DNA of 64,000 nucleotides. Origin: Lepidurus packardi (Eukaryota > Arthropoda > Branchiopoda > Notostraca > Triopsidae). The position numbers and the translations under genes are program-made. Shown here one piece after another: positions 6,665 to 29,006 of this stretch (within the stretch, counting starts at the first letter, position 1; every line of letters starts with the position of its first letter). Location of the stretch: contig JAKZAN010000005.1 in NCBI GenBank assembly GCA_023053545.1, positions 9,362,001 to 9,426,000 on the forward strand, given 5' to 3'. The notes beneath the pieces are model-generated. The model was given only the letters and a program-made list of their open reading frames with translations. It made no database searches and was not told the DNA's origin.

Positions 6665-7772
6665 GGTTGGCTTGAGCGCTTCAGGACTGCCTGAAGAGTG
6701 TTTGGAGTTGAACGTTATACAATATTTATACGTTGCAGCATGTGGGATTTTCTTCTCTAAAGATAAAATGTAGGACATTGCCACTTGGATACCGGCGATT
6801 CGTATTTGACTCTAGTTAGCTTAAGGAAGTTGGAACTTTACTAGGAATGAAATCTGATATTGCGTGTTTTCTTCACGTTTTCAAGTTGTCTAGAGATAAT
6901 CCTTAGAGGTCTTTAGTTCACCTTAAATTTGTTTATTTTTTTTCATAGGAAACTTATTTTTTTGTAAAAGATGTATGTGCATTTCAATATAAATATTTAT
7001 CGCAGCGCTCTTTAGTAGCCTATTTCGCAACTTATTTTCCATAGACATCCACCATACGGTTTACACGACCCTACAATTTCAATACCATTTAGTTCAAGTA
7101 ATTATGTCTTGGAAGGGAAAGTCTATACGGGTCATTTTTATACCGTTGCATGAGAGAATGCTTTACTGAAACAGATACCTGTCTCAGTAGAAGCACTTTT
7201 GGCAGGCACTTGATGTTAACCTTATTACATTTATCATAATGATGAAATTTCCTACACTACGTGCTCATGCGAATTTATCAAGTTTATTAAATATACTTGA
7301 TAAATTCGCATGAGCACGGAATATATTAATGTTGTAATATCTCAAATTTATTTAATGTGAGATACAAGACAGTTGACCGTGTATCTACGATACGAATATC
7401 ATATCTACATTTAAATAAAATAAATATTTGCAGTCTATATAAAATAATATAAATTTTGTATCTATGATGATGCAAACTGCTAACATTCATCATCGTCGTC
7501 GAACATCATTGTTGCAAAATAGGTTGTTTTTCTTAATAAGAAAACCAAAAAATCCTGACGAAATATAGAATAGGTTAAAGTATATAAATTAATTTGACTT
7601 TGCAATCGCCTTCGTAAAGCGCATCGCAGCTCTTAATATTCGTAAACAGCAATTCAATTACATGACCGCCTATGCTAATCACGCGTACTACAATAAAACT
7701 ACCTTGCGCTGCTTCTAGGGTATTCACTTGCTGATATCTCGTTAAACAAGTACAAACACCTCAAGTACTTCC
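6665..7772. other. Divergent intergenic region with a perfect hairpin
   Basis: This region separates the divergent secreted Cys-rich gene (-) and the first transporter (+), so it should hold both promoters. It is AT-rich. The notable structure is the 23-bp perfect inverted repeat at 7261-7317, listed separately. The last 130 bp before 7773 are clearly similar to the 130 bp before the second transporter (11026-11158), which marks the conserved proximal promoter/5' UTR of the transporter duplication. Confidence 0.5.
7261..7317. repeat. Perfect 23-bp inverted repeat (hairpin)
   Basis: Arms 7261-7283 and 7295-7317 are exact reverse complements, with an 11-base AT-rich spacer. Each arm begins or ends with GTGCTCATGCG / CGCATGAGCAC. 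The structure could fold as a strong stem-loop in DNA or RNA. It lies in a promoter-proximal intergenic region. Confidence 0.9.
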
Positions 7773-10408
7773 ATGTCGCTCTTAGACGAATTGATCCCAG
7801 TGAACGCGCTGGACTGGCCGGATTACTTAGTTTGTGCCATTCTGATACTTTCGTCGATTTCTGTTGGCATATATTTTGCCTTCTGTGCTAATGGGGCGAA
7901 AGAACAATCTAGCACAGAATTCCTTTTAGCTGGTAAAAACATGAGCACATTTCCTATGGCCATGTCACTCTTTTCCTGGTAAATGTTATTTAAAAAAACG
8001 ACTAAGGGATTTTTCGGAGTGCTTATTTATTTCAAATATTATTAGTTTTGTTTCTGCTGTGTCTGTTCTCGGCTTCGCTGGGGAAGTGTACAAATACGGG
8101 ACGATGGGCTGGGTGATAACATTCACTTATTTTCTCGTCATGCCCGCTACTGCTTTCCTTTATTTGCCCATTTTTTATCGGTTACAACTGACATCAGCGC
8201 TTGAGGTAAAGTATAGAAATAATCCTTATTCTTGCAAAATTATCCCTGTGAGATTCCCATGGTGCAAAAAAAGTATCTAGAAAAACGGTTTAATCGGAGT
8301 GTACGCCTGATGTGTTCCGGATTCGTCATCAGTCAAATGGTATCAGTAAAAAAAATTATAATTTAGACTTCAAATTTTGTACAAAATTTTTTGTTGATTT
8401 GCAATAGTGTGTTTATGCTGCTGTGGTTTCATACGCCACATCATTGGCCCTTAATCAAAGTATATTTTGCATAAACGTGTGAGTAAATAAATTTGTACTT
8501 ATTGATTTCTATGCAATTAATCCACAGTGACAAGCATTAATGTTTACATACTGGCCGGGTCCATATTCGTGGTTTGCATTTTCTATTCCGCAATGGTAAT
8601 ATACAGAGGCTTTGTGTTTCTAAAAAAAAAAAATCTAAAATATTTATAGGGTGGAATGCGAGCTGTGATCTTTACGAACGCTTTGCAAATGTTAATCATG
8701 TTTGGATCAATCATAGCTATCGTAATTAAAGGAACGGTAGATTCGGGAGGTATCGAAGTAGTTTTTCAAAAAGGCTATCAGTCGGATCGCATTGAATTTC
8801 TCAAGTACAACATGAAATAGCAACATTACTACAAAAATCAAAGATAATTTTAAGCGAAATAATTGATACCTGCATTAGTTTCGATCCGGATCCGAGGACA
8901 AGAAACACAGTTTGGTCCCTAATCTTCGGGAGCTATTGCCAATGGACGTTCGCGTACGCAGTCCACCAATCGAATGTCCAACGTTATTTAACTGTACCAA
9001 CCATTACTCACGCAAGAAAGTAATTCATGACCTTTATACCTAATTCCGACCTTACTTTATTAATCAGTTTTTCTTAAGTTCACTTTGAACCTAGCATAAT
9101 TTAATTATTATTCGCAGTGCATTATGGCTGAATATAATTGCCTTTATAATTATCAACACGCTATGTTCTTATATCGGACTAATAATTTACGCCAAGTATG
9201 CAGATTGTGATCCTCTTCAAACTGGGGTACATTTTGTACAAGTCTTAAAAAAATAATAAAGTTAACATTCTACTTTCTTGGAATAGATAGTCAGTAAGCC
9301 AGCCCAACTAATGCCTCTGTTCGTATTGGAAACCTTAGGGTCAATCCCAGGAGTACCGGGCTTTTTCATCGCTGGAATTTTAAGCGCTGGAATTAGGTTA
9401 GTAGAGCTCTTATTAGTAAAATATTCACGTAAGTAATTTTTTTTACTTAGCTCTGTTACAAGTGGTTTAAGTGCATTGGCAACGATCACATTGGAGGATT
9501 TCATCAAACCCTTGGCCACAGGGCTTGCTGATACAACGGCTACCAAGGTATCCAAAGGTTTAGCAGCCCTATATGGAATCACTTGCTTTGGTTTTGTTTT
9601 TATGATAGCTAATTTGACCAACATTCTTGAGGTATGATAGCTTCAATATTATTTTCTTTATATTATTTTTTTTTTTTTTGCTAGATTGCTATAACTGTAA
9701 ACAGTACTATCGGAGGACCCATTTTGGGGGTTTACTCGTTAGGCATGTTCTGCCCATGGTCCAATGCGAAGGTAGGGAGAAATAACTGAATGCTGCTATA
9801 GAAGGAACAGTTCGTACTGGAGTGCTTATGTTTATTCTAGGGCGCTGGAGCAGGAGTTTTTTTAAGTACAGGATTGGTGATGTGGATCGCGTTCGGCTCC
9901 CAGGCCGCAAAGGTGGGGGGATTGCTACTGGACATAACAAAACCTTTGAGCATTTCTGGCTGCAACTCAACAGATATATTCAACGTTACAATGTCAGCTG
10001 TCAAGAGGTAAGTGTCACATTTACCTTAGACAATTTTTAAAGGTAGCATCTCATCTATAGTGAAGAACCCTTGGAAATCTACAAGCTGAGCTACTTGTGG
10101 TATTCGGCTATAGGCTGCTTGGTAGCAATGACTGTGGGGATGTTTGTGAGCTGGGTTACCGGCTTCCAGAATCCTCGAAAACTGAACCCAGATTTAATAC
10201 TAAACTTTGGAGATACGTTTGCTTGGTTTCTGCCAGCTTCTGCACAAGAATGTATGCGATTCCATGTGGGAGATGAATATGAAGTTAGCTTTTTTAAGAT
10301 TATTCATTGTTATCCAGAACTGATTTTTATTTTCGGTAGGTAACTTTGCCCAAAATTAAGGGAAATCAGATGCAGATGGTCTTCGAAGAATTAGAACCCA
10401 AAGGTTAG
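7773..10408 (+). CDS. SLC5-family sodium-coupled solute transporter, tandem copy 1
   Basis: Fourteen exons: 7773-7978, 8046-8205, 8274-8339, 8408-8459, 8528-8595, 8650-8804, 8879-9019, 9118-9226, 9287-9396, 9451-9631, 9685-9771, 9841-10007, 10061-10283 and 10340-10408. All phases agree and give 597 aa, the usual length for SLC5 carriers. The protein is mostly membrane segments and matches the sodium-coupled monocarboxylate/multivitamin branch (SMCT/SMVT type). Supporting motifs are FVSAVSVLGFAGEVY after the first helix, YLEKRFNRSVRL, the QSNVQRYL stretch, SVTSGLSALATITLEDFIKP (the Na-binding helix region of SMCTs) and GGPILGVYSLGMF. A Cys/Asn-rich extracellular loop with a glycosylation sequon (GCNSTDIFNVT) follows, with the usual last helix and a short cytoplasmic tail. 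Expected role: sodium-driven uptake of a small organic anion or vitamin at the plasma membrane. The exact substrate cannot be read from sequence. It is paired head-to-tail with the copy at 11159. Confidence 0.92.
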
Positions 10409-11158
10409 GAAATGAAAGCATACCGTCACAAAACTTTGTGAAAGTTAGATGAATGTTTTTCAGAGGTAAGGTAACCTTTATAACTTCCAAATTGACATGT
10501 TTTGACTTAGCATACAATACTTAATGACTTGGAAAGTAAAAAGAATACAAACTGTAACTTAAAAAAATTGTTCGAAATAATAAAAGATAAATTTGTTTTG
10601 AATGACTCCGAGTACGCCGCAGCTGTAAAAGACGGATTGAATTCCTATTTCTGAATATATATCGTTACGCTTTTTAAACCTTCTTACGGCTCAAACAACG
10701 TTTCTAAAACGTAAGAAAACCAAACAGTAGTGTTTCTTGAGGGAAGCAAACAACGACAACAGTCGGAGAGCAACAACCTGAAAACGGAACATATTTCGAA
10801 AACGAAACAGAACATATTTTCCACACCTAACTTACAGATGAAGACTCATGACTATTTAACTGACCGCCTGTTCCGTTTTCAGGTTGTTGCTCTCCGACTG
10901 TTGTCGTTGTTTGCTTCCCTCAAAAAGCACGATTGTTTAAATTTTTCCTACGCTTTACAAACGCTGTTTGATCCGTAAGAAGGTTTAAAAAGCTTATCGA
11001 TATATATTCAGAAATAGCAATTCAATGACGTACACCAATTTTCTGGGGACGTGACGGCCAATGCTAATCACGCATACTGCAATAAAGTTGCATTGCACTG
11101 TTTCTAGGGTATTCACTTCCTGATTTCTCGTTAATAGAGTGACATCTCAAGTAGTTCG
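10409..11158. other. Intergenic between transporter copies
   Basis: This gap holds the 3' flank of copy 1, a large inverted-repeat element (10636-11026) and the proximal promoter of copy 2. The 3' flanks of the two copies are also recognisably similar (shared words after each stop codon around 10440-10580 and 13800-13960), so the duplication unit includes 3' sequence. Confidence 0.6.
10636..11026. mobile_element. 391-bp foldback (long inverted-repeat) element
   Basis: The left arm, 10636-10790, and the right arm, 10870-11026, are imperfect reverse complements over about 155 bp, separated by about 79 bp. The innermost roughly 50 bp are almost exact (for example GGAGAGCAACAACCTG against its complement), and the outer 40 bp are also well matched (around CTATTTCTGAATATATATCG). 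No coding capacity is present. It resembles a non-autonomous foldback element or MITE that entered the promoter side of transporter copy 2. I could not find a clear target-site duplication. The corresponding site upstream of copy 1 lacks it, although the shared promoter sequence begins just at its right edge. Confidence 0.75.
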
Positions 11159-13781
11159 ATGTCGCTTTTCGATGAACTGATTCCAGTAAACATGCTGGAC
11201 TGGCCGGATTACTTAGTGTGTGCCATACTAATACTTTTATCGATTTCAATTGGCATATATTATGCCTTCTGTGCAAATGGAACAAAAGAACAATCTACCA
11301 CAGATTTCCTTCTAGCTGGTAAAAACATGAGCACTCTTCCTATGTCCATGTCCCTCTTTTCCTGGTAAGTCTAATTGAGAAAAGTAACTAAGGTATCGCT
11401 AGAGATTTATTTATTTTAAATATTGTCAGTTTTATTTCTGCTGTGTCGATACTCGGCTTGGCTGGGGAAGTATACAAGTACGGGACGATGTGCTGGTTGA
11501 TAACATTCACTTATTTTCTGGTCATGCCTGCTACCGCATTCTTTTATTTACCAGTTTTCTACCGATTACAGCTGACATCAACGTTTGAGGTAAAATTTGG
11601 AAGTAATTCTCATTCTTGCACAATTATACCTGTGAGATTTCCGTGTTGCAAAAAAAGTATCTAGAAAAACGGTTTAACCGGAGTGTGCGCCTGATATGTT
11701 CCGGATTCGTCATCAGTCAAATGGTATCAACTAAAGAAATAATAATTTAGATTTAAATTAAAAAAAAGTTTCTTGTTGAATTGCATTAGTGTGTTTATGC
11801 TGCTGTGGTTTCATACGCCACATCGTTAGCACTTAATCAAAGTATTATTTACATATACATGTAAATAAATGAATTTTAATTTACTGATTTCTTTGCAATT
11901 CATCGGCAGTGACAAGCATTAATGTTAACATACTGGCCGCGTCCATATTCGTAGTTTGCATCTTCTATTCCGCAATGGTAATATACGGAGGCTTTGTGGT
12001 TCAGATTGGAGTATTGAAATTGAATCCTATTTATAGGGTGGAATGCGAGCTGTGATCTTTACAAATGCTTTGCAAATGTTGATCATGTTTGGATCAATTA
12101 TAGCTATCGTAATCAAAGGAACCATAGATTCGGGAGGTATCGAAGTAGTTTTTCAAAAAGCCTATCAATCGGATCGCATTGAATTTCTCAAGTACAACAT
12201 GAAATAGCAACATTACTACAAAAATCAAAGATAATTTTAAGCGAAATAATTGATACCTGCATTAGTTTCGATCCGGATCCGAGGACAAGAAACACAGTTT
12301 GGTCCCTAATCTTCGGGAGCTATTGCCAATGGACGTTCGCGTACGCAGTCCACCAATCGAATGTCCAACGTTATTTAACTGTACCAACCATTACTCACGC
12401 AAGAAAGTAATTAATGATTTTTATATCTAATTCCGACCTTACTTTATTCATCAGTTTTTCTTAAGTTCACTTTGAACCTAACATAATTTAATTATTATTC
12501 GCAGTGCATTATGGCTGAATGTAATTGCCTTCATAATTATCAACACGCTATGTTGTTATGTCGGATTACTAGTTTACGCCAAGTACTCAGAGTGCGATCC
12601 GCTTCAAACCGGGGTACTTTTTATACGAATCTAAAAATATTCTAATTTTTTTGGAACAGTTAGCAAGTAAGCCAGCGCAGCTAATGCCTCTATTCGTATT
12701 GGATACCTTAGGGTCAATCCCAGGAGTACCTGGTTTTTTTGCCGCTGGAATTTTAAGCGCTGGAATTAGGTTAGTAGAGCTCTTATTAGTAAAAAATTCA
12801 CGTAAGTATTTTTTTTTACTTAGCTCTGTTACAAGTGGTTTAAGTGCGTTGGCAACAATCACATTGGAGGATTTTATCAAACCCTTGGCCACAGGGCTTG
12901 CTGATACAACGGCTACCAAGATATCCAAAGGTTTAGCAGCCCTATATGGAGTCACTTGCTTTGGTTTTGTTTTTATGATAGCTACTATGACCAACATTCT
13001 TGAGGTATTATAGCTTAAACTTCATTTTATTTATTTTTAAAAATTTTTATTTTTTTTGCTAGATTGGTATAACTGTAAACAGCACAATCGGAGGACCCAT
13101 TTTGGGAATTTACTCGTTAGGCATGTTCTACCCGTGGTCAAATGCGAAGGTAGGGAGAAATAACGAAAATTTTGCTATACCAGGAGTGTACTGGACCACT
13201 TACATCTTTTCTAGGGTGCTGGAGCAGGAATCTTTTTAAGTACAGGATTGGTGATGTGGGTCGCGTTCGGCTCCCAGACCGCAAAGGTGGGGGGATTGCT
13301 ACCGGACATAACAAAACCTTTGAGCATTTCTGGCTGCAACTCAACAGATATATTCAACGTTACAATGTCAGCTGTCAAGAGGTAAGTGTCACATTTACCT
13401 TAGACAATTTTTAAAGGTAGCATCTCATCTATAGTGAAGAACCCTTGGAAATCTACAAGCTGAGCTACTTGTGGTACTCGGCTATAGGCTGCTCGGTAGC
13501 AATGACTGTTGGGATGCTTGTGAGCTGGGTTACCGGCTTTCAGAATCCTCGAAAACTGAACCCAGATTTAATATTAAACTTTGGAGATACATTCGCTTGG
13601 TTTCTGCCAGCTTCTGTACAAGAATTTATGCGATTCCATGTGGGAGATGAATATGAAGTGTGCTTTTTTTAAAACTGATTGACTCCCATAATTAATTTTA
13701 TTTTCCACACAGGTAACTTCTTCCAAAATTGAGGAAAATCAGGTGCAGGTTATCCCCGTAGAAGGAGAATTGAAACCTTAG
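11159..13781 (+). CDS. SLC5-family sodium-coupled solute transporter, tandem copy 2
   Basis: Fourteen exons: 11159-11364, 11430-11589, 11658-11723, 11790-11841, 11910-11977, 12037-12191, 12266-12406, 12505-12613, 12660-12769, 12824-13004, 13063-13149, 13215-13381, 13435-13657 and 13713-13781. Every exon has the same length as its counterpart in copy 1, for 597 aa. No frameshift, premature stop or lost splice site was found, so the gene appears functional. Differences from copy 1 are mainly conservative changes in helices (for example the start of exon 9, LASKPAQ against IVSKPAQ) and a divergent C-terminal tail (VTSSKIEENQ). Two segments, 12169-12412 and about 13303-13475, are identical to copy 1 including introns; see the findings. 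The role should be the same class of sodium-coupled organic-solute uptake, possibly with altered expression because the upstream sequence carries an inverted-repeat insertion. Confidence 0.92.
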
Positions 13782-14929
13782 TAAATGAAGGAAAATGTAT
13801 TTTTAAAGTTAGACGAATATATTCCAGAGAAAAATGAGGAACCTTATAACTACCGTGCACGTTTGGACTTAGCATACAATGCTCATTGTCTTGTAAAGTA
13901 AAAAGAACAAAATCTGTTAGATATAAAAAATGTTCTGAGAGAAGTAAAAAGTCAGTGTTGAACGACTCTGAGTAGACACATTTTGAAAGCAAATATATAA
14001 TTTCAGGGTGACAATCTATAAAACTGGATTATGCTTCTTTCTAACTTTATCCTCATCCAGATTATAGTACACTTTTCTCAAATAAACCTAAGTTGTGTAA
14101 CTGCTCAATTACGCATTCTTGGGTATTTATGTTAACATATATACTTATCTTCTATCAAACGTAATACCTTCCTTATTGAGAGATAAATCACAGTATTAGT
14201 AGCGACATATTGCACGCTATTAGTACATTTTTCCTTTCATGTAATTATTATTGGAATATCATCAATTACTAAAACACGATGAGATAAGGAAAGTAATTTT
14301 TTTCCTTATTAATTTGTATTAAGTCACTTTTATCTTTCTCGTGTTTAGGGAATTCCAAGCCACAAAACTCGATAGTATCTGACGATTATATCGAAGGGAA
14401 GACCGTAAATCGTAAATCCTTTACAATGAATGTACAAACTTTCTTTACAATGTCCTGGTTGTAGTAACGACTTTATGTTCTATGATGTCTCCAGTTTCAG
14501 TCTACCGAAAGTATAGTGAAGTGCTCCCAATTGTGTATTACTTACTAATTGTTATGTCTTTAACTTCACAATGTATTATTGCCATAAAAGATAGCACGAT
14601 ATCATTAGCAATGTAACTTGAGCTTGAGAAATATTTCGGTGATAGAAAAATAAAAAAAAGATAAGTTACCCCTAGTGTAATGATAACGAACCAATCTTAT
14701 AAATTATGTGTATCATGTATGATACATAGTTTACTTGTCCATATCCATGAGCCAAGAAGCTTTGGAACAAACATGGACTTTCGAAAGACAAACGTTTGGG
14801 TTCACGTATAGAGAAATATATTAAGTGATGTAGATACCAATCCGCGTACAAGTAACAATATGGAGTATTTTTACTTATTTTGATCTAAAGAGTGCTACTG
14901 AATTATGGGCTTAATTGCTAAACTTAATT

Positions 14930-15611
14930 GTTAAAGGTTAGCCTTTACAATTACGTTTTTACTGGTTCAACAGTAATTTAAGTATGACAGCTTTATTGTG
15001 GACCCCAATTCTGTTGGCACGACACCTTTATTGTGGCCGCTATGAATTGCGAAAGGCAATACTAGCTTATTGGGAATATCCTTTTCAAAGGACTTGTCCT
15101 CTATATCTTAACTATTTTTTTACGTATCGGGAATTAGAAAAGAGCGTCATTTAATTCAATTGTTTAGCTTGACCTTTCTATTTTTTCTATTTTCTATTTC
15201 TATTTATTTTCTATTTATTTATTTATTTCTATTTATTTTTCTATTTCTATTATTTCTATTTATTTATTTATTTCTATTTATTTTTATTTTTCTATTCCTA
15301 TTTCTATTTCTATTATTTCTATTTTTATTTATTTTTTTCTATTTTTTTTTTATTGCTCTTTCTATTGGGCGTTCGTAGGCCACGTGAGGTGTAACGCTAG
15401 GTCATGCAGGCGGGATTCAGGGTTACGCTGAATGTAGGTTAAGAAATCAAGGCGCTGCTCAGATTGATAGTTACATATGTAGTTACACATGTTTTTTTTT
15501 TCTGTACGACACACTAGTTAAGCGAATTAATAAATTTCAACTCGATTTTGCTTTCTACTATCAATGGAAGTTTCGTGACGTAGTCATTCTTTTGACATAA
15601 AGTGTTTTTTC
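14930..15611. repeat. Duplicated upstream block, copy A (before glycosyltransferase 1)
   Basis: This block is a direct repeat of 17331-18188. Near-identical stretches include about 200 bp from TGGTTCAACAGTAATTTAAG, the segment containing GGGCGTTCGTAGGCCACGTG, and the roughly 120 bp that end at the shared CTATCAATGGAAGTTTCGTG word just before each gene. Copy A carries a T-rich array at 15163-15355 that copy B lacks. Its position directly upstream of a start codon in both places suggests that it carries the promoter and 5' UTR. Confidence 0.85.
15163..15355. repeat. T-rich simple-sequence array (TTTCTATTTATT-like)
   Basis: About 190 bp consist almost wholly of T with regularly placed C and A (TTTCTATTTATT variants), with no G. 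In the paralogous block at 17331 the same site has only a short ATTTTCTATTGCTCTT word, so the array seems to be a local expansion from that seed. It translates as an apparent Phe/Leu-rich frame that should not be taken as a gene. Confidence 0.9.
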
Positions 15612-15618
15612 AAAGAGA

Positions 15619-16849
15619 ATGGCCCTTAAGTGTGTGAAAACAATTTCTCGTTCCATGTTTCTTGGGTGTCTAATCACTGCCGTGTGCCTATATTTAATGC
15701 TCAACTACAATAAAGGCAACGTCTCTCTGTCGATCTCCTATCTCTTCACGAACCAAAGCGAAGAACTAGAGTTCTGTTCATGCTCTATACCGGAGAAAGC
15801 CTCGAGGCCCAAGTTGATCGTTGGATCCGGGACGCTTTGTCAATCAAAGGTGTCCGATAGAGGATTGCACCAAAAAGTCGTTTCATATTGTCTGGGTGGT
15901 GATGTGAACAACAACGTAACCTTCAGTCGCTACTTTAGTTTCCTTGATATAATTGCTCAGACAGTAGCTGACATATATCCAGGTCTAAGCTTCGTACTTC
16001 ATATACATAGAATAAATTCGCTAATATATTTACAATTTTTTTAATACTGTAGGATGGAACATGCGGATCTACCACAAGTACAATTCAACGGACAAAGCTT
16101 TCACAGAGCATCTTTGTTCAACGTACTGTCGTTTCGGCCACGTGGATCTATGCAATGTTACAGACTTGGAAGTGAATTCAGTGAACCCACTGACAACAAA
16201 TCTTGCCAGTTTGTCTCCAGTTATGTGGAGGTTTTTACCTATTGCAGATAACACGGTTGATCTGTTCATGTCCAGAGATCTGGACAGTGTTGTGACAGAA
16301 AGGGAAGCAGCAGCCGTGAATTTCTGGCTAAATTCTTCCAACGCGACGTTGCATGTCATGCGAGATCATCCGTTTCATGGATCTACAATTATGGCTGGTA
16401 CAATGCATTCGATTCATTCTTACGAAAAATTATGTCTAAAATTCCTTGATATTAGGCATGTGGGGAACACGCATGGAACTTCCACGTATAAAAAACTTGA
16501 CCCGCAGTATTTTCCTAGATATGAAGAATATAGCCGGGAATAAAAACTACTACGGTTTGGATCAGAAACTACTGAATGACTTATTATATACTACCATTGG
16601 AGAGTCCAACGCGGTAATTACCTTCCTAAATAATTACTATAAACTGAAATTGTATAATTTATACTGATGGTTTAGTTACGTCACGAGTCTTATGACTGTA
16701 CTTCCTTCCCTAAGTCATCGGTTCCGTTTCCGACGAAAAGAATCGGCCATGAGTTTGTTGGTGCCAGGTTATATAAGAAAGAAGGTAACCTACCTAACTG
16801 CCCGCTAAAATGCCGCCCAAAACTGCACTTGGACTGGGATTATTGTTAA
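15619..16849 (+). CDS. Type II membrane glycosyltransferase-like protein, copy 1
   Basis: Four exons, 15619-15982, 16053-16397, 16456-16613 and 16676-16849, join in phase to 346 aa. Residues about 10-28 form a single N-terminal membrane anchor after a short basic cytoplasmic tail, the layout of Golgi glycosyltransferases. The luminal part has several N-glycosylation sequons and paired cysteines. A conserved core reads WNMRIYHKY, then SRDLDS (a DxD-like, metal/nucleotide-sugar binding motif), then REAAAVNFWL and MRDHPFH. The 58-bp intron 2 sits between ATG GCT G and GC ATG TGG and restores MAGMWGTR. The last exon has HESYDC and FPTKRIGHEFVG. I recognise this RDHPxH...MAGMWG pattern from uncharacterised glycosyltransferase-like proteins but cannot assign a CAZy family or substrate. 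The neighbouring fucosyltransferase suggests a role in glycan processing. Confidence 0.85.
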
Positions 16850-18267
16850 CGGTTTAATTGTTTTCCATATTTGAATATACTATACCCGAAAACGTGACTT
16901 AATATTGCCTTTACTTATGTATAAATTAGCCGCGTATTAAAGGCTAACGAAATTACGAAAAAAAACTTTACGAAAATGGAATTACGGCTTACTGTCCGTT
17001 TTTAACTCGCAAATAATGCAAATATCTTTTGCGACTCATCACTTGGCTCAGCGACTTTTGTGAAAATGACCGTTCGTAAGACCGCAGCAAGTTGCAATAC
17101 TTATGTAGTCTGGTGCAATCTTGTGTTATCGTTGAAATGCAAAAACTTCGCCAGAGTACACCAGAATTTTAATTTACACATAGATAACAGGTCTTGCTGA
17201 ATCAGAGAAAAAAAGACTAAAAGCGTTAAAAAATCACTCCTACATAATTAGATTATGGCGTCTAGCCTGAATTTTGATTTATTCTATGCATGTTGTTTCA
17301 TTTCTCTTCTCTTGGATTTCAGACCATAATAAGTGTTAAAGGCTTTTCCTGGTTCAACAGTAATTTAAGTATGACAGCTTTATTGTGGACCCCAATTCGG
17401 TTGGCACGACACCTTTATTGTGGCCGCTATGAATTTCGAAAGGCAATACTAGCTTATTGGGAATATCCTTTTCAATGGACTTGTCCTCTATATCTTAATT
17501 ATTTCTTTTAAGTATTGGGAATTAGAGAGGAAAATCATGTAATTAAATAGTTTAGTTTGACTCGAATGATCTATTGATTAATTTTCTATTGCTCTTTGTA
17601 TTGGGCGTTCGTAGGCCACGTGAGGTGTAACGCTAGGTCAAGCAGGCGGGATTTAGGGTTACGCTAAATGGGTTAAGAGACCAAGGTGCTGCTCAGACTG
17701 ATTGATTGGTTGCCAGTGGTGAGGTCACAATTTCCTCCACTTTTGTATGTGTGCCCTTTAGTCGACCCTAAAGTGAAGGGACAAAGAACACCATATGCAT
17801 TGTTTGAACCCCTTGATATGGGCAAACGAGGGAAAACAGCTAACCCAAGGAAAGTGGCGTAGTTTGACTTTTTTTTACGAGAGGCTAATAGTACAAGTAG
17901 GGTCCAACATTTTGGTTGTATATTACCCCCCATCGGGTCGGTGGTCAACAGCTGGCAATTCTGTGACAAGTTCTACTTGCCATAGAATTGCCAGTTGTGG
18001 AGTAACGTCACTTCAATCTCTATATCGTCAATATTCCTGCACTGAAAATCGTTTAGCCTATGTAGTTACACGTGTTTTTTTCTGTACGACACATTAGTTA
18101 AGCGAATTCATAAATTTCCACTCGATTTTGATTTCTACTATCAATGGAAGTTTCGTGACGTAGTCAATCTCATGACGTTAAGTGTTTTTACGATATATCT
18201 ACATGATAATGGGGTGTACAGGAACCAGAGCGAACCTCCAATAGTCTTATCAAGTCGAGGCTTCGCT
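16850..18267. other. Intergenic between glycosyltransferase 1 and the fucosyltransferase
   Basis: From 16850 to about 17333 this is 3' flank that is also present after copy 2 (to about 22966), so it belongs to the duplicated unit. From about 17331 to 18188 it is upstream block copy B. A frame starting at 18172 continues into the fucosyltransferase but is treated here as probable 5' UTR. Confidence 0.6.
17331..18188. repeat. Duplicated upstream block, copy B (before fucosyltransferase)
   Basis: This is the paralogue of 14930-15611. It lacks the T-rich array of copy A and instead carries about 350 bp of extra sequence at roughly 17700-18058, between the GCTCAGA word and the TGTAGTTACAC word that are adjacent in copy A. 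That extra piece contains a small inverted repeat (17952-17962 with 17984-17994). The block ends about 80 bp before the preferred fucosyltransferase start. Confidence 0.85.
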
Positions 18268-19458
18268 ATGATGTCTTGGAAACCGTACCTGTGTGTGACA
18301 CTAGCCGTGCTTTGTCTACTATTTCTTTCCTCCATGTACATACCCATTGCCACATTCCTGTTGAACAAAACTAGTCAATTGAAAAACCATTTATTTAACT
18401 TCGGATTTTCTGTAGTGCCTATTAACTCGAGCCCCACCAACATGAACATTCTGATTTGGAATAGTCCGCATCGATTAGAAACAGCACCTTTTGGTACCGG
18501 CCATGAACCATTCGTCGCAAATCATTGTAACATATCAGACTGTACTGTGTACGTGAACCGAACGGCTTTACCTTTGGAACAATTTGACGCCATTTTGCTC
18601 AATATCCACGAACTCTTTTCGACTTTGCCCAATGGTACCCGACCTGCCAGTCAGCGGTGGGTGTTTTTGGACCAGGAACCGGCCCAGTTTATGCATGAAA
18701 ACTTGAACTCGTTGGAGGGTCTCTTTAACTGGACTATGACGTACCGACTCAACTCTGATATCCGCTTACTGTACGGTCACGTGGAGGCTCTTCCGAGTGC
18801 GCCCAAATCGCTCGCAGAATTCGAAAGTCGCAAGTCAGAAGCTCGACGGGTTCCTCCCGACGTGGAAAACAAGACGCGTTCCGTGCAAACGAAAGCTGTG
18901 GTAGCCTGGTTTGTGAGCAATTGTAACACCGCCAGCAAACGCGAGAAGTACGTGGAAGAGTTGCGTAAATACATTGCAGTGGATGTCTACGGCGGTTGTG
19001 GGAATCTGACGTGCCCCCGGAATCCAACTACTTGGCTCTCTAATATTGAATGTTACGAAATGTTGGAGCAGAACTACAAGTTTTATTTATCCTTCGAAAA
19101 TTCATTTTGTACTGACTACGTCACCGAAAAGTTCTTTTATGTGTTAAACCGGACGATTGTGCCGGTTGTCTATGGAGGTGCTAATTATAGTCAAATTGCG
19201 CCTCCGCATTCCTATATTAATGCACTGGATTTTAAGCCCAAGGCTTTAGCCAATTACTTGCATTTTTTAAACGAAAATGAAGATCAGTACCAAGTGTTTT
19301 TCTGGTGGAAAAATCACTATAAAGTTCACGTAGGTTTCGATGTGGTGATTCCCAAAGCGTTTTGTGACCTATGTGCTAAATTACACAGTAATCAATCGAT
19401 TACAGTTCATAGAGATTTGGTACAAAATTGGGATCCCAAAATACAATGTTGGCAGTGA
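18268..19458 (+). CDS. Alpha-(1,3)-fucosyltransferase-like enzyme (GT10), intronless
   Basis: A single exon of 396 aa from the ATG at 18268. The same frame is open to an ATG at 18172 (428 aa), but that codon lies inside the duplicated upstream block, so the later start is preferred. The protein has a short cytoplasmic tail, a membrane anchor (roughly residues 5-30: LCVTLAVLCLLFLSSMYI), a stem with sequons and a GT10 catalytic domain. Diagnostic stretches are WVFLDQEPAQFMHENL with NWTMTYRLNSDI, the VVAWFVSNCNTASKREKYV segment, VDVYGGCGN, and the GDP-fucose binding signature FYLSFENSFCTDYVTEKFF followed by PVVYGGANY. Expected role: transfer of fucose from GDP-fucose in alpha-1,3 linkage to GlcNAc on N-glycans or other glycans in the Golgi. 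Being intronless among intron-rich neighbours may reflect retroposition or the common single-exon state of this family. The exact acceptor cannot be told. Confidence 0.93.
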   Translation: MMSWKPYLCVTLAVLCLLFLSSMYIPIATFLLNKTSQLKNHLFNFGFSVVPINSSPTNMNILIWNSPHRLETAPFGTGHEPFVANHCNISDCTVYVNRTALPLEQFDAILLNIHELFSTLPNGTRPASQRWVFLDQEPAQFMHENLNSLEGLFNWTMTYRLNSDIRLLYGHVEALPSAPKSLAEFESRKSEARRVPPDVENKTRSVQTKAVVAWFVSNCNTASKREKYVEELRKYIAVDVYGGCGNLTCPRNPTTWLSNIECYEMLEQNYKFYLSFENSFCTDYVTEKFFYVLNRTIVPVVYGGANYSQIAPPHSYINALDFKPKALANYLHFLNENEDQYQVFFWWKNHYKVHVGFDVVIPKAFCDLCAKLHSNQSITVHRDLVQNWDPKIQCWQ

Positions 19459-21252
19459 CGATACTACATGTAGATGTAAGTTATGAAAACGGCCTTCTAA
19501 CCAGTGCCTATTGTTTCTGTGCAGAATATGTGCAAATCAATTTACCAGTGCCGCCTTCTATATCGTCGAATATTGATTTCTGGTCCAATTGTTTATTGTT
19601 TTACTGGTCACAATTTCCTTCCGATGTTTTGCACGTTTTTCGTTCAATCGATATTCGTTTTATTCTTCAACTTTCTCTACGAATTTTCGAATTCTCGATG
19701 ACTGAAAATGAACTCAATTTGTGTGCGTTAATATATAAAAAAAATCTGTATGAAAGATGGAACTATATGAAATTGGAGATTGTGATAGATAAGCATATTG
19801 TTACGTCCCTAACTAGCAACTGGCTCGGTTTACAATGACGTGGTCTTTCACGGGGCCGGACATTACTAAGAAAGATAGTCACTCAGTTTGCAGGAACCGA
19901 CGGGATCTGTATTTCCCCACAGCAACATACCGTCTCTACTCCAACACTGCTTCTCTCCCACACCTTCCTTTCTATCATCCTTTTATGACCTCAACAAACA
20001 CGGACGAAATCAATGTAGTCCCCTTGGTTCCGGGGAAGTGATTTTCAGTAGCCCAGAAACCAAGGGTACGGGGAACAAAATGGGAAGCTACGCTAAGACA
20101 AAACGAGTAATACAAATTGGCGTGGCAATATTTAATCAAGGCTTGGAGTGAGCAAATTGCTTACATCGGGTATTTACCTCTAAAAGTAGCGAAAAATTCC
20201 AAGAATGCGAATGAATAATAAAATTAATATCGACAAAAATTATCTAGGTTTTTAATTTGATTAAATAAATTCCCAGTACAAATGGATCTCTATTGTTAGA
20301 AATGGTCCGTTGCGAATTCAGGTTGGTCTTATATAGTTTGGAATTTATTATACGTGCATGTAATTTATACGTGCAGCGTGGAGCGTCAAAAGAACGGAGT
20401 CGGGAAGACAAGTCACAAAAGATATCCGCAGCAATAAACGACGTCCGCAAAAGACGTCCGCAGCACCTGGAATATGAGTCAAGTGTACTTTTGCGGGAAA
20501 GGAAAAAAGGAAGTTTGTGCTCAGTATTGTTAGTGGAATTTCGTAATACGAAGAGTGTTTTCTTTGTTTCTAAAATTGGATGCTGCAAATTGCATGTATA
20601 CATGTGATTTACAGAATCCTTTAGAGCTCGTATATGTACCTGCCCTGGTTTTCTTCCACCGGTATCATAATATGTTTTCTAAAATTAATTTTTCCAAAAA
20701 TTAATCTTATCTGCGCATTTTTTCCAACAGAAGTTCGAAGAGACTCAAAACTACCTTTCTATATCAGTATTTGCAATTACGTCAAATCCTAATAAATGTT
20801 GTTAGAGGCCTTGAGCCTTTTTGTGGGCAATAGATAATAACCATGCATTGGGTATAAAGGCAATCCCCAATCTTAATTGTAATCTTATCTGCACATGTGA
20901 AACAGGAAAATGGAAAAAGATAAAAGCGTAGTTAAGTATGATAAGAAACCAGCGACACACAATAGGTTTTCCTTTTGCTTGCAGCGACATCTAAGAACGC
21001 TAGTACTGTTTTTATTAACTTCCACGTTGTGCTTCTGAGTTTCCTTCTTCCTCATAGACTGCTCTTCGCCTTACCTAAATGGTATACTTTTGCATAAACT
21101 GTACAAATACTCGTTGCAAGCATTGTGATTCAAATTTCATAAGAAACTAAGATTTTCGGCAACAAGAAATCTAGTTTGCTGATTGTCCCGAAGAAGGGAG
21201 CTACTGAAAACTTCAAGAAAGAAATTAGAGAATGAGAAATAAGAATTAGAGA
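19459..21252. other. Intergenic between fucosyltransferase and glycosyltransferase 2
   Basis: It holds the fucosyltransferase 3' flank and then unassigned sequence. Around 20290-20620 there are overlapping frames of 104 and 119 codons on opposite strands without recognisable domains, plus a TGTTAG-start, TATA-like and AATAAA arrangement that vaguely recalls a solo LTR but lacks a target duplication. Upstream of 21253 there is no copy of the shared promoter block. Confidence 0.4.
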
Positions 21253-22483
21253 ATGGCCTTTAAATGTGTGAAAACAATTTCTCGTTCCGTGATTTTTGGT
21301 TGTCTAATCACTGCCGTGTGCCTCTATTTAACGCTCAACTACAATAAAGACAACGTCTCTCTGTCGATCTCCTACCTCTTCACGAACCAAAGCGAAGAAC
21401 TAGAGTTCTGCTCATGCTCTATACCGTATAAAGCCTCGAGGCCCAAAGTGATCGTTGGATCCGGGACACTTTGTCAATCAAAGGTGTCCGATAGAGGATT
21501 ACACCAAAAAGTCGTTTCATATTGTCTGGGGGGTGATGTAAACAACAACGAAACCTTCAGTCGCTACTTTAGTTTCCTTGACAAAATTGCTCAGACAGTA
21601 GCTGACATATATCCAGGTCTAAGCTCCGTACTTCATATACATAGAATAAATTTTCTAATATATTTGTATTTTTTTTAATACTGTAGGATGGAACATGCGG
21701 ATCTACCACAAGTACAATTCAACGGACAAAGCTTTCACAGAGCATCTTTGTTCAACGTACTGCCGTTTTGGCCACGTGGATCTGTGCAATGTTACAGACT
21801 TGGGAGTGAATTCAACGAGCCCACTGACAACAAATCTTGCCATTTTGTCGCCAACTATGTGGAGGTTTTTACCTCTTGCAGATAACACGGTTGATCTGTT
21901 CGTGTCCAGAGATCTAGACAGTGTTGTGACAGAAAGGGAAGCAGCAGCCGTGAATTTCTGGCTAAATTCTTCCAACGCGACGTTGCATGTCATGCGAGAT
22001 CATCCGTTTCATGGATCTACAATTATGGCTGGTACAATGCATTCGATTCATTCTTACGAAAAATTATGTCTAAAATTCCTTGATATTAGGCATGTGGGGA
22101 ACACGCATGGAACTTCCACGTATAAAAAACTTGACCCGCAGTATTTTCCTAGATATGAAGAATAAAGCCGGGAATAAAAACAACTACGGTTTGGATCAGA
22201 AACTGCTGAATAACTTATTATATACTACCATTGGAGAGTCCAACGCGGTAATTACCGTCCTAAATAATTACCATAAACTGAAAGTGTATCACTTATACTG
22301 ATGGTTTAGTTACGTCACGAGTCTTATGCCTGTACTTCCTTCCCTAAGTCATCGGTTCCGTTTCCGACGAAAAGAATTGGCCATGAGTTTGTTGGTGCTA
22401 GATTATATAAGAAAGAAGGTAACCTACCCAAGTGCCCGCTAAAATGCCGCCCAAAACTGCACTTGGACTGGGATTATTGTTAA
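21253..22483 (+). CDS. Type II membrane glycosyltransferase-like protein, copy 2
   Basis: Four exons, 21253-21616, 21687-22031, 22090-22247 and 22310-22483, match copy 1 exon for exon, including exon lengths, splice phases and intron lengths in the second and third introns (a constant 5634-bp offset from exon 2 onward). The product is again 346 aa with the N-terminal anchor, SRDLDS, MRDHPFH, MAGMWGTR and HESYDC motifs. No disabling change was found. Substitutions cluster in the anchor and stem (for example SVIFGCLITAVCLYLTLN). The homology to copy 1 starts within about ten bases of the start codon and continues about 480 bp past the stop, so the upstream region is unrelated to that of copy 1. 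Function should equal that of copy 1, but regulation may differ. Confidence 0.85.
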
Positions 22484-23111
22484 CAGTTCAATTGTTTTAA
22501 ATATCTGAAAATATTATGCCCGAAAACTTGACTTACTATTTCCCTTATTTATTTACAAATTTAGCCGCTTATTAATGCCAAACAAGTTGAAACTTTACGA
22601 CAATGGAATTACGGCATACTGTCCAGCTTTAACACGCAAATAATGCAAATATATTTTGCGACTTATCACTTGTCTCAGCGATTTTTGTGAAAATAACCGT
22701 TCGTAAGACTGCAGCAAATTGCAGTAATAAGTAAGACCTGTTAGCGTGCAATCTTGTTTTAGCGTTGAAATACAAAAACTTCGACAGAATATGCTAGAAT
22801 TTTAATTTACACATAGATAACAGGTCTTGCTGAATCAGAGAAAAAAAATGTTAAAAAATCACTTCTACATAATTAGATTATGGCGTCTAGCCTGATTTTT
22901 GATTCATTCTATTCATGTTGTGTTTCATTTGTCTTCTCTTGGACTTCAGAGCACAATAAGATGCTTTGAAAAAGAACCGCGCAGCAGAAATTACAAGCAA
23001 AGCCGGCAGTGATGTCCATCTAGTAGAAGAAATCAAAACCGTTAAGAACCACATCGTGCTCTATCCTAGTGTCAGTCGCCACCGCATTGTTTTTGTTGTT
23101 CCATCAAGGAA
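22484..23111. other. Intergenic: duplicated 3' flank and exportin-7 promoter
   Basis: To about 22966 this matches the 3' flank of glycosyltransferase copy 1. The last about 145 bp before 23112 should hold the exportin-7 promoter and 5' UTR. An arthropod initiator-like TCAGTC lies at about 23072-23077; that assignment is an inference. Confidence 0.45.
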
Positions 23112-26100
23112 ATGGCGGATGAACAAGTAAACAAGTCTTCCTTCATTAATAATGCTTATTAATAACCTACTTATACATTAATAAACCCTAATTATATGGA
23201 ATTAAACTACTAACTTATATTAAATCCGTGTGTGGAAAGTTTCTACTATATTTGACAAACTTTCAGGGCCTAAAAAGGGTCATGTCACAATTTACAAGCC
23301 ATGCCAAATTAGCGAATTTATCACTGGAACTTCGCAGTTCAAATTTACCTGATCTAAGGCTTATTGGCCTGGAGGGTTTAAAGTTAGTTAAAATTATTAC
23401 CGAGCTTTTCATCTCTAGCAACTTTTAGCCTATTACATTTAAACCGAATGTTCAAACAATGAAATTATCCTACCCAATGTCTCCACACAGTATGCTAATT
23501 GGGAATCAACAATTCATTTAACTCGAAACAAATTGTTGAAGTGCGGGTTTGATTATGTAAGAATCAATAAGTTGCGTTCCAATTGTTCCTATATCCTTTC
23601 TTGGTTTCTTTAAATAAATTTCTTTCACGCTTCACAACCATTGTTCACGTTTCTTTTTTATCATTCTTAATCTTGAGGTGTTGTACTCATTTATTATAGT
23701 ATGTATCATCTTTTATGTTTCTTGTAAGGTTGGCTCAGTTTTAGCTTTTTGTTATTTTCGTTCTTTTCCATAAATTTTTTTAGGAAGTAAGGCAGCTTGA
23801 GCTGCTTTGTAAGCAACTATACGAGTCGACGGACCCAGCACGGCGTGCCGAGGCCGAAAAGGCATTAGTTGCATTCCAAAACTCTCCTTCGTCGTTGAAC
23901 AAGTGTCAACTTTTGCTCGAACGTGCTGATTCGTCGTATGCTCAACTACTAGCAGCCACGACCCTCACCAAATTAACGTCTCGCCCTGCCCAAGTGCTCT
24001 CCCTTCAACAACGCATCGATATTAGTAAGAAACCTTTCATTTCTATTATTTCTTACTCTTTTCTCTCAATTTGTATGTTAACTTGACGAATTCTTAATCA
24101 GGAAATTATGTTCTTAACTACTTGGCCACTCATCCTAAGCTGGCTCCGTTCGTTTCCCAAGCGTTAGTTACGTTATTCAGCCGTATTACCAAAATGGGCT
24201 GGTTTGACAGTGACAAAGACCAGTACGTTTTTCGAAGCGTGGTGGATGACGTGTCTATGTTTCTAGCAGTAAGAATTATCTTTACATTCATTTGAAATAT
24301 GCTTTGACATCTTTCAAATTATTTTTACTTTCAAATTATTTATTTCTTTATTGAATTGTTTTAGGGATCCGTGGACCATTGCAGCATTGGTGTCCAACTC
24401 CTCTCCCAACTAACGTCTGAAATGAACCAGTTGAGTGAAACGGACGCTTCATTTTCCCTCACGAAGCACCGGAAGATCGCGTCCTCGTTCAGGGACACTC
24501 AATTGCTGGACATCTTTCAGTTGTCGTGCAGTTTACTGCGAACTGCCTTGGAGAATTTCAAGAACTTGAACTTTACGGATGAAGCTCAGCATGGACTCAT
24601 GAATCACCTCCTTCGCTTGGCCCATAATTGTCTCACCTATGATTTCATCGGCACTTCCAATGATGAAAGCTCCGATGACTTATGCACGGTGCAAATTCCA
24701 ACCAGTTGGCGCCCAGTTTTTTTGGATTTCTCCACTTTACACCTCTTTTTCGACCTCTATGCCAATTTGCCTTCCAGCTTATCTCCCATGGTAAGAAACA
24801 AATATTACTATAATACGTTAGAGTAACTAAGGAAAGCAATTACAGTACATAGTTTCAATAAGTACACTACGCAAGGCAAAGAATTGCTATATTGTTTACG
24901 AATAGCTGACAATTTGTGCATTCTTTTCAGGCTTTGTCTTGTTTGGTCCAAATTGCGTCAGTGAGACGGTCTTTGTTCGATAATGCCGAGCGTGCCAAAT
25001 TCCTGAACCACGTGGTGGCAGGTGTGAGACGAATTTTGGAAAACCCTCAAGTAATTATTCCGAAAAAAACAAAAAAAGAAGACTCGTTAATGGGGATGTG
25101 TGTTTATTTAGAGCTTGACAGATGCAAATAATTACCATGAATTTTGTCGATTGTTGGCCCGTTTGAAAACGAACTACCAGCTAGGGGAGCTGGTTATGGT
25201 AGATAATTACCGAGAAGTCATCCAACTCATTGCGAAATTTACCGTAGAGTCATTAAGGGTAAAAATATTTGTGGTTTTACTAAACGTTCTTTAATAGTTT
25301 TCGTTTCTTCTTTGTTTTGTTTTTTTAGATGTGGCAATTTGCACCCAACAGCGTACATTACTTGTTGAGCCTTTGGCAACGAATGGTGGCGTCTGTGCCA
25401 TATGTGAAGGCTACCGAGCCCCACATGTTAGACACCTACACGCCTGAAGTTACGACCGCCTATATTACGTCGCGTGTGGAGGCTGTTGAGATTATTATCA
25501 GGTAAATCATAGGTTATTTTCCCGTACTTTAAAAAGAATTAGATAAGGTTACGTTAGGGTTACATTAGGTTAGGTTACGTTAGATTATGTTACGTTAGGT
25601 TAGGTTACGTTACGTTAGGCTAGGTTAGGTTGGGTTAGGCGTCCTTCTGTCGGAGTTCGGAGTTCTTGTGACGTATTTTTTAATACGGCTTAAGCACTTC
25701 GTAATCTCGTTGACGCTTAACCAATGAGTAGAGATTATTCAAAGTTCTGTTGGTTCCTTAAAACTTGTGGACTGGCTACGAAATAAACAATAGTGCGTAT
25801 AGTGAATCTAGAAATTGGAAACGTGTGGGAAAATGTCACAAAGTGGGTTTTTTTTTAGTACGTATATTCGGTTATTAGAATCTCCGCTTAATAGAACCAA
25901 TATTCGCTTGACAAACGTGATCACAATAAGCGGCATCTACTGTATTATTAAAGTTTTTTACATCTTAGTGAAAGAATCTTTTAAGAACTTTTTGTTTCTT
26001 CTCTTTTTTTTTCTTTGTTTTCTTTTAAGAACTTCTTGTTTATCTTTTAAGAACTTCGTTTTTCTTTTAAAAATTTCTTGTAAGGTCACACTTCCTAGTT

Positions 26101-29006
26101 AGATTATTTACTGTATTTACACAATAATTAGACTTAAATAAGTTGCTTTTAGCATTTTACAAATAATTTCTTTATTTTTGATTGTGATAAAAGCGAAAGT
26201 ATTTTGTTGCGAGAGTGTGATTTGACGAGTCAAAACTCATTTCCGTATGTTTAGGGAAGGGTTAGAGGATCCTTTGGATGATCTAGGGCTGATTCAGCAG
26301 CAGCTTGAACAAATCTCAGTGATCGGTCGGTGTGAATACCCCAAAACGTGCACTTTACTGGTCCAACTTTTGAATTCCGCTGCTCAACGCTACAGCGAAC
26401 TTTTGTCTGACCCTACCCCTCGGCCCTTGGATATACTCATACAAGAAGGGCGGCTCACATGGCTTGTTTACCTCATTGGAGCGGCAATTGGCGGCCGAGT
26501 CACTTTTACCACCAACGACGATCACGATGCCATGGACGGTCAGTTAGTTTGTCGAGTTCTGCAACTCATGAACCTAACCGACTCAAGGTTGCCCAGTGGA
26601 GGCAGTCCCAAGCTAGAACTGGCCTTACTTTCCTTTTTCGAGCAATTTCGCAAGATTTATGTTGGAGATCAGGTAAGTTTTTACTTCTAAACACACAATA
26701 TGATCTGTACTTCATTTCTCAAAAACAATTTCCTTAGGTACAGAAGACGTCTAAAGTTTATAGAGGATTATCCGAAGTCTTGGGCTTGAGTGATGAATCC
26801 ATGGTTTTAAGCGTTTTTATACGAAAAATGTAAGTTTTTATCGGTAAATTTATTTTTTGTGTAGAATTTAATTAAATTTATTTTTTTTAATTTTTATGGC
26901 AGAATTACCAATCTGAAGTATTTAGGAGGCAGTGAAGCCATAATTACTAAAACTTTGCAGTTACTGAATGAGCTTTCGGTGGGATATTCAAGCGTCCGTA
27001 AGCTGGTCAAGCTGGACGAAGTGAAATTTTTACTCAATAGCCACACGGTAAAAGATAAAAAATATCAGTATCTTAAAAGACGTTCATAAAAGGTTTTTTT
27101 TAATTTTTTTACTATTTAGAGTGATGTTTTTCCGTTTTTGGGGCCGAGTGTCCCTCTGGGAGATATGCGAGCCCGTTCTTCATTTTATACCTCGTTGGGG
27201 CGGTTGTTACTCGTCGAATTGGGAGAAGATGAAGAGAAATTCCAGCAGTTTATGCTTCCGATGACTTCAGCACTGGAACAACTTCGCGCCATGCTCAGCA
27301 ACACCGAGCAGCCCATGTTTAACGCGGAAGAAGCCCAGAAAATGGTCATTGGCTTAGCCCGCGACTTACGTGGCCTAGCATTTGCCTTTAATACCAAAAC
27401 TGCGTTTATGATGCTCTTCGATTGGATGTAAAACAAGCTTAAATAAGAGAAAAATCTAAAAAAAATGATCGAAAACTTTCCGTTTGCAGATACCCGGATT
27501 ACACCCCTGTCTTTCTCCGAGCCTTGCAACTGTGGTACCATTTACCCCAAGTGAGCACTCCGGTCCTCAAATTGTTCACTGAGTTGGTCCAAAACCGGTC
27601 CCAGAGACTCCAGTTTGATGTGTCTTCGCCCAATGGATACTTACTCTTCAGGGAGGCTTCCAAAGTGCTTTGCACTTACGGTAAAATTTTGTGTAAAAAA
27701 TGCATTGTCTTCTTAAAAGATATAATGCGATTCCTTAAGAAATATATGAAATAGAGGATACGTTTATATTTTTTTAAAACTGTTTTAGGAAGTGGGATTT
27801 TAAGTGTGGATGCGCCCAAGGATCAGATTTATGCGATGAAGCTGAAAGGTTTCTCTATTTGTTTCTCGCTGCTGAAAGCTGCACTGTGTGGATCGTACGT
27901 CAATTTTGGGGTTTTTAGACTGTACGGCGACCCGGCTTTAGACGATGCGCTAGCCACGTGGGTCAAATTGTTGCTTTCAGTGCCCAAGCAAGAGTTATTG
28001 GATTATCCCAAGTTGAGTCAAACATATTACGTATTGCTGGAGTGTTTAGCCCAAGACCATACGCCTTTTTTGGCTTCGTTGGAGCCGCATGTGTTCTTGT
28101 ACGTCATGGCGACCTTGCAAGAAGGTTTGTCAGCTTTAGGTAAGTTGTTAATTGATTTTTTTTTTTTAATCCCCCTAAATTTGTTACGAAAATTTTCTGT
28201 GAACTTGGCATTTCGTTCGTCTTTTATTTTTGGTTAGATACCATGATATGCACTGGGTGTTGTAACACACTGGACCATTTGGTGACGTTTGTGTTTCGGC
28301 AGCTGACAGGAAAAGGTAATTAAGAGTCATCGTTATTTTTTTTTTTATTTATGTATCAGCGTGAGCCAAGCTCTTGGCCGACTTTTATTGCGAGTTATCT
28401 GATTATTTTACATAAAACATTGAACTTTCTACAGTTGTTATTAATTGTTAGAGTAAATATGGATATTTCTGTAATTTAGGGAACCAGAGGCAGAATGCGA
28501 ATAGTTCGTCTAATTTAATGAGACTTTTGGACGTCCAGCCGGATTTGTTGCAGCCATTATTGTCCACGATTCTTAATATTGTAATGTTTGAAGAATGCCG
28601 TAACCAGTTTTCGATGTCGAGACCTCTTTTGGGTTTGATTTTGCTGAATGAAGAGGTAAAAACTGTCTAGTTTTATTGATTAAGATGAATAATTTGGGTT
28701 TTCATTTGTGTAGTATTTTAACCAACTAAGAGAGAATATTATAAGGAACCAGCCATCTGATAAGCAAACGTCTATGGCACAATGGTTCGAGAATTTGATG
28801 GATGGCGTTGAGAGAAACTTGTTAGCTAAGAATAGGGATAGGTACACGAAAAAAAAAATGATAAAAAATAGTTCGGGAATTTTAAGATTTGTATGGCTTT
28901 GTTTAGGTTTACTCAGAATTTGTCAATTTTCCGGCGTGACATAAATGAGTCGCTGAAAGGACCTTTGCAAGCCAACATGCTCAACACGGACATGATGACG
29001 TCATAA
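23112..29006 (+). CDS. Xpo7: Exportin-7 (RanBP16), importin-beta family nuclear transport receptor
   Basis: Seventeen exons: 23112-23126, 23784-24024, 24102-24268, 24365-24790, 24931-25050, 25112-25258, 25329-25501, 26255-26672, 26738-26829, 26903-27047, 27120-27427, 27490-27680, 27789-28139, 28238-28315, 28480-28655, 28714-28841 and 28907-29006. All phases agree for 1091 aa, close to the vertebrate length of about 1087. The product follows exportin-7 from end to end: [20 protein letters not shown] at the N-terminus, then [129 protein letters not shown] and a C-terminal DMMTS. It is an all-helical HEAT-repeat receptor that binds RanGTP and shuttles cargo through nuclear pores. The 15-base first exon (MADEQ) is separated by a 657-bp intron, unusually long here. 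Intron 7 (753 bp) contains a TTAGG-like tract. Confidence 0.97.
25540..25770. repeat. TTAGG-like degenerate tract plus shared repeat flank in exportin-7 intron 7
   Basis: About 100 bp of GGTTAGGTTACGTTA-type sequence resemble the arthropod telomere repeat TTAGG. They are followed by a flank containing GCGTCCTTCTGTCGGAG and ACCAATGAGTAGAG that recurs after the similar tract at 29303-29480. The joint recurrence of tract and flank means that this is a dispersed element, not a chance simple repeat. No terminal inverted repeats were seen around this copy. Confidence 0.7.

Follow-up and report, generated by a model that had tools for sequence, protein, structure and literature searches.

A shared upstream block before two unrelated glycosyltransferase-like genes of Lepidurus packardi lies within a tandem gene duplication

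Results

Glycosyltransferase-like genes of the locus

The window analysed here, a 64,000-nucleotide stretch of Lepidurus packardi DNA that maps to contig C4 of the 108.6 Mb genome, carries three glycosyltransferase-like genes (GT-A, GT10, and GT-B) and two copies of an upstream block, all on the forward strand (Table 1). The first-pass annotation of this DNA missed GT-B (21248-22960), the second copy of the RDHPxH-type gene, which alters the reading of the locus.

Table 1. Features of the glycosyltransferase array, in order along the window.
Feature	Positions	Strand	Description and basis
Block A	14957-15609	+	5' part of tandem copy 1, immediately before GT-A; window self-blastn, repeats, divergence
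GT-A, RDHPxH/DxD glycosyltransferase-like	15619-16849	+	Exons 15619-15982, 16053-16397, 16456-16613, 16676-16849; 346 aa
GT-A 3' flank, closing tandem copy 1	16850-17333	+	Homology to 22484-22960, K2P 0.134
Block B	17344-18189	+	5' part of tandem copy 2, preceding GT10; blastn, repeats, divergence, genome search
356 bp found in block B only	17703-18058	+	Gap between blastn pieces
Segment between block B and GT-B, found in copy 2 only	18190-21247 (3058 bp)	+	blastn pieces break at 18189 and resume at 21248
GT10, alpha-1,3-fucosyltransferase-like	18268-19458	+	Single open frame, 396 aa from ATG 18268; Pfam, PDB relative
Dispersed terminal-inverted-repeat element, MITE-like, 335 bp	19796-20130	.	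Ends TATTGTTACGTCC / GGCGTGGCAATA
Block-free DNA upstream of GT-B	20131-21247	+	Sequence, window self-blastn
GT-B, intact copy of GT-A	21253-22483	+	Exons 21253-21616, 21687-22031, 22090-22247, 22310-22483; 346 aa
GT-B 3' flank, closing tandem copy 2	22484-22960	+	Window self-blastn, divergence

GT-A, spliced by hand at GT/AG sites and open to its stop codon, begins with an N-terminal hydrophobic segment (judged by eye), and its protein is 94% identical to that of GT-B. Both sequences contain SRDLDS and RDHPxH, which we take to be glycosyltransferase motifs. Searches with the two proteins gave no credible match in Pfam (best 0.26), NCBIfam (best 0.28), PHROGs (best 0.12), or PDB (a single match at E 0.014, to a p53 fusion), i.e., neither a named glycosyltransferase family model nor a solved structure was found for them in these four collections. 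Relatives of GT-A were recovered by tblastn from 20 plasmid records and 6 phage records (in which some phages are entered twice), at E-values down to 6e-17, and their annotations are mixed, including hypothetical and TPR proteins, with two given as SPINDLY-type O-GlcNAc transferase. The surroundings were read for three of these relatives: that of Synechococcus phage S-SRM01 stands amid GT2, fucosyltransferase, FkbM, and NodZ genes, that of Azospirillum is a TPR protein with no sugar genes adjoining, and the third lies in an unannotated region. The S-SRM01 relative itself (L069:2498-3178) is annotated as hypothetical within this sugar-transferase cluster. Pattern searches of the genome-contig and viral-contig collections returned 23 and 52 matches, respectively, none of which was confirmed as a relative of GT-A.

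The middle gene matches both GT10 domains of Pfam above cut-off (C-terminal PF00852, E 2.5e-59; N-terminal PF17039, E 4.5e-22), and its PDB relatives are FUT9, the closest solved structure (E 1.3e-22), and a fucosyltransferase A. By its domains it is thus a predicted fucosyltransferase of the GT10 family (a name that we take from CAZy), as first annotated. An alternative in-frame ATG at 18172, inside block B, would extend the protein to 428 aa. The coding regions of GT-A and GT10 had been called unrelated; in agreement with this, GT-A carries no GT10 domain in Pfam, and no homology between the two could be detected.

Paralogs of GT10 in the genome

The genome holds about 19 GT10 loci (22 matches), some of which (C3:3901 and C3:6265) are split across several frames. 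The nearest paralog of the window GT10 is 49% identical to it, and in a 16-row tree the window gene groups with three C2 genes at moderate support (88/90); this tree omits 5 of the 21 paralog matches (four fragments and one match interrupted by stop codons), and locus C2_5067 is represented in it by its N-terminal frame, with 44% of the row filled. Because each of the three nearest paralogs likewise consists of a single frame (405-409 aa), the intronless state of GT10 is no sign of recent retroposition. We rejected that origin, as 14 of the 15 paralogs in the tree read through in one frame of 357-465 aa, several of them without the N-terminal part, where an upstream exon is possible, and with the fifteenth (C2_5067) split.

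Several other observations concern these paralogs and their contigs. The GT10 paralog L041 (C4:11425958-11427052) contains three in-frame stop codons and is probably a pseudogene. On contig C3, a GT10/RDHPxH pair is duplicated about 320 kb apart (L062, C3:283500-291000; L063, C3:603000-610500), the two loci being 86-94% copies in which the GT10 part has opposite orientations. As these pairs are copies of each other, and their GT10 genes are distant from the window GT10 in the tree, they are no evidence of an ancestral pair, and we dropped the C3 neighbours (at 284 and 604 kb) from that argument. TTAGG arrays, whose presence points to an arthropod, also occur in the genome, and one of them sits at the extreme end of contig C3.

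Extent and uniqueness of the upstream block

The doubling of an upstream block before two sugar-transferase genes, as first annotated, is real. Comparison of the window with itself (blastn) resolves the block into three pieces, 14957-15173 / 17344-17561 (E 2e-85), 15346-15468 / 17582-17702 (E 1.6e-42), and 15476-15609 / 18059-18189 (E 8.7e-46), with 35 differences over 469 aligned bases. The shared sequence GTTAAAGG, read at both 14930 and 17335, suggests that block homology begins at these positions, and the extent first given for the doubled region, 14930-18188, is accurate. Two length differences break up the block, so that the uninterrupted homology adjoining the genes is about 131-134 bp long. 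Between pieces 1 and 2 lies a (CTATTT)-like tract of 172 bp in block A (15174-15345) and 20 bp in block B; between pieces 2 and 3, block A has 7 bp in place of the 356 bp peculiar to block B. An inverted repeat within this B-only part (arms 17945-17971 and 17975-18001, 3-nt loop) forms a strong hairpin, and the region around it (17931-18010) has a predicted fold of -39.4 kcal/mol. Block A ends 9 bp upstream of the GT-A start codon and block B 78 bp upstream of the likely GT10 start codon at 18268; the DNA common to GT-A and GT10 is therefore promoter-proximal.

Against the whole genome, block A gave 66 matches, of which 4 fall at this locus and 62 elsewhere, and all 62 lie in query positions 220-438, the low-complexity stretch 15149-15367. 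Block B gave five matches, all at this locus. No third copy of the block outside the low-complexity tract was found in the 108.6 Mb by a search tool that skips very common words, and which a very common repeat could thus escape.

A tandem unit of block and gene

Homology between the two copies continues beyond the block. GT-A with its flanks (15614-17333) recurs at 21248-22960 as a 92% copy, and block and gene pieces follow in the same order and on the same strand in both copies. The boundaries meet closely: on the inner side block homology stops at 15609 and gene homology resumes at 15614, and on the outer side gene homology runs to 17333 and block B opens at 17344. The order along the locus is thus block A, GT-A, block B, the 3058-bp segment with GT10, and GT-B. 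With this segment removed, the copies align end to end over 2203 aligned bases at 93.1% identity, with several gaps inside the block. They are collinear, adjacent copies on the same strand, as expected of a tandem segmental duplication, copy 1 ending at 17333 and copy 2 starting between 17335 and 17344.

Divergence is comparable along the unit at presumably neutral sites, the 3' flank being somewhat higher. Specifically, the three parts of the block have K2P distances of 0.078, 0.079, and 0.081, the three introns differ between GT-A and GT-B at 11 of 190 sites, and the coding sequences give dS 0.097 and dN 0.032 (dN/dS 0.33). The block did not differ in divergence from the introns (p 0.50) or from introns and 3' flank together (p 0.12); the 3' flank by itself is more diverged than the block (57/467 vs. 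35/469 sites, p 0.016). The block and the gene have diverged to about the same degree, as a single event predicts, and the excess in the flank could mean that the block is constrained or that the histories differ.

The segment between block B and GT-B

A genome search found no second copy of the whole 3058-bp segment. Most of its 49 partial matches fall in the dispersed MITE-like element, the others being weak GT10 paralogs and a single 127-bp match on C4 (78%). The boundaries of the element were set by aligning the window copy with 11 others. We rejected a solo LTR as the identity of this element, since the alignment shows inverted terminal repeats. Behind the element, GT-B is preceded by 1.1 kb of non-block DNA; GT-A and GT10 have upstream DNA in common, whereas GT-B has a different upstream region despite its near-identity to GT-A.

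Neither a target-site duplication nor poly(A) was seen by eye at the segment ends. At the junction in copy 1, four bases (15610-15613) have no direct match on either side, a trace of the kind that end joining can produce; the junction bases TTCAA are also present in the GT-B leader, which fits a change in either direction. Paralogs place 4 of the 22 amino-acid changes between GT-A and GT-B on GT-A and 1 on GT-B and leave 17 unassignable, an assignment that used 4 of the 6 RDHPxH paralog loci (one exon only of L062; all but L063, a near-copy of L062, and C3:12565 kb). The changes assigned per copy are too few to tell which copy switched regime. Upstream similarity was compared with 12 of the 15 GT10 and 5 of the 6 RDHPxH paralog loci, five of the GT10 start positions being approximate. 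In 2 of the 51 comparisons no more than 5 of 100 mononucleotide shuffles reached the score, which is about chance; one of these two is a 29-bp similarity between block A and a GT10 paralog on C4 (0/100 shuffles).

Neighbourhood of the array

To the right of the array lies an exportin-7-like gene (23787-26671; Pfam TPR_XPO7, E 3.4e-54). Directly upstream is a second tandem duplication (7660-10614 / 11049-13974, 86.7% identical), which is probably older and whose gene is presumably membrane-transporter-like; the one exon of it that was scanned had no Pfam match. A long palindrome of about 390 nt, 80% self-complementary, lies between the transporter-like copies (10636-11026).

Discussion

Origin of the shared block

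The collinear homology of block and gene, the meeting boundaries, and the similar divergence lead us to a single duplication of a tandem unit. We have little doubt that block and GT formed one unit that was duplicated in tandem, and we hold just as firmly that each of its copies has one of the two blocks as its 5' end (copy 1, about 14930-17333; copy 2, about 17335-22960). The first-pass annotation had instead proposed that the block was a regulatory segment which had been copied next to a different gene. The block does stand upstream of both genes, as this would require, but GT-B sits behind the GT10 segment in order and with similar divergence, GT homology starts within 5 bp of the end of block homology, and two independent duplications would need to have matched at both boundaries. 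We consider copying of the block alone highly improbable, and more improbable still that the block is a dispersed repeat lying by chance before both genes; the low-complexity tract does match many places, but the matches away from the locus are confined to it, and outside it a search that skips very common words found the block at two places only, which is not the distribution of the ordinary repeat that the annotation had named as its own refutation. Taken as a whole, that earlier interpretation is partly supported.

How GT10 came to stand in one copy only is the less certain half of the explanation. Here we favour loss from copy 1 over insertion into copy 2, because no donor copy was found for the gene and no target-site duplication was seen. 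The ancestral unit would have been arranged as copy 2 is now, i.e., block, GT10, intergenic region, and GT. After the tandem duplication of this block-GT10-GT unit, a deletion of about 3.06 kb in copy 1, reaching from a point 78 bp upstream of the GT10 start codon to within about 5 bp of the GT start codon, would have joined the former GT10 upstream region to GT-A. As an explanation of the whole locus, a tandem unit plus loss of GT10 from copy 1 is the account towards which we lean. It is possible, if doubtful, that an ancestral block-GT unit was instead duplicated in tandem and that a 3.06-kb GT10 segment then entered copy 2, in which case GT10 may have taken over the GT promoter and GT-B acquired new upstream DNA. 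Such an insertion accommodates the same collinearity and divergence, and the MITE-like element means that DNA has been inserted in the segment at least once; on the other side stand the lack of a second segment copy or a close GT10 paralog in the genome, which means that the gene would need to have left its source, or the source to have since been lost, and segment ends at which, by eye, none of the marks of insertion noted above were seen. More speculatively, and in our view improbably, the array could consist of two old haplotypes, with and without GT10, joined by unequal exchange, such that the presence or absence of GT10 was once, or still is, polymorphic, much like fucosyltransferase genes at Daphnia resistance loci; the block would then control GT10 and GT-A together, GT-B would have escaped that control, and the locus would represent a natural promoter exchange involving two terminal-glycan enzymes, maybe kept by parasite pressure.

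Relation to known systems

Tandem duplications sampled from populations of Drosophila yakuba with RNA-seq are described as changing expression through "shuffling of regulatory elements" (Rogers et al., 2017; PMC5460883). The present locus is alike in that a tandem duplication was followed by an altered pairing of gene and upstream DNA; it differs in that the new pairing arose from a 3-kb gene-bearing indel between the copies, and is known from sequence alone. At Daphnia magna resistance loci, alpha-1,3-fucosyltransferase genes vary in presence and absence (F locus, PMC9894429; PR locus, PMC5340410), and at the F locus the authors consider a fucosyltransferase gene "likely lost" from one haplotype (PMC9894429). 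The likeness lies in GT10-type genes within structurally variable glycosyltransferase clusters; exportin-7, which adjoins the array here, is not among the neighbours named in the passages on those loci (PMC9894429, PMC5340410), and no phenotype is known for the Lepidurus locus. Two D. magna primers from the literature (PMC11476439, PMC1523214) gave no match with up to 2 mismatches allowed, which speaks only weakly against that species, as primers of this sort can bridge exon joins. A limited set of search terms returned no description of this locus in the literature.

Possible consequences for upstream control

The rearrangement is of a known and ordinary type, and it leaves the block directly before two different genes. 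Shared control or expression of GT-A and GT10, as the first-pass annotation envisaged, stays plausible because both start codons have the block immediately in front of them. Under the favoured history of tandem duplication and GT10 loss, the block would drive GT-A in copy 1 and GT10 in copy 2, and GT-B would be driven by the different DNA at 20131-21247. For method, the lesson is that, when two genes share an upstream block, a split tandem duplication is the first thing to look for. With the kind of event already known, the finding is useful for the natural comparison that GT-A, GT-B, and GT10 offer: if the block holds a promoter, these genes provide a three-gene test in which unrelated enzymes have the same upstream DNA and near-identical enzymes have different upstream DNA, and their expression would show how far upstream sequence alone governs the expression of glycan enzymes.
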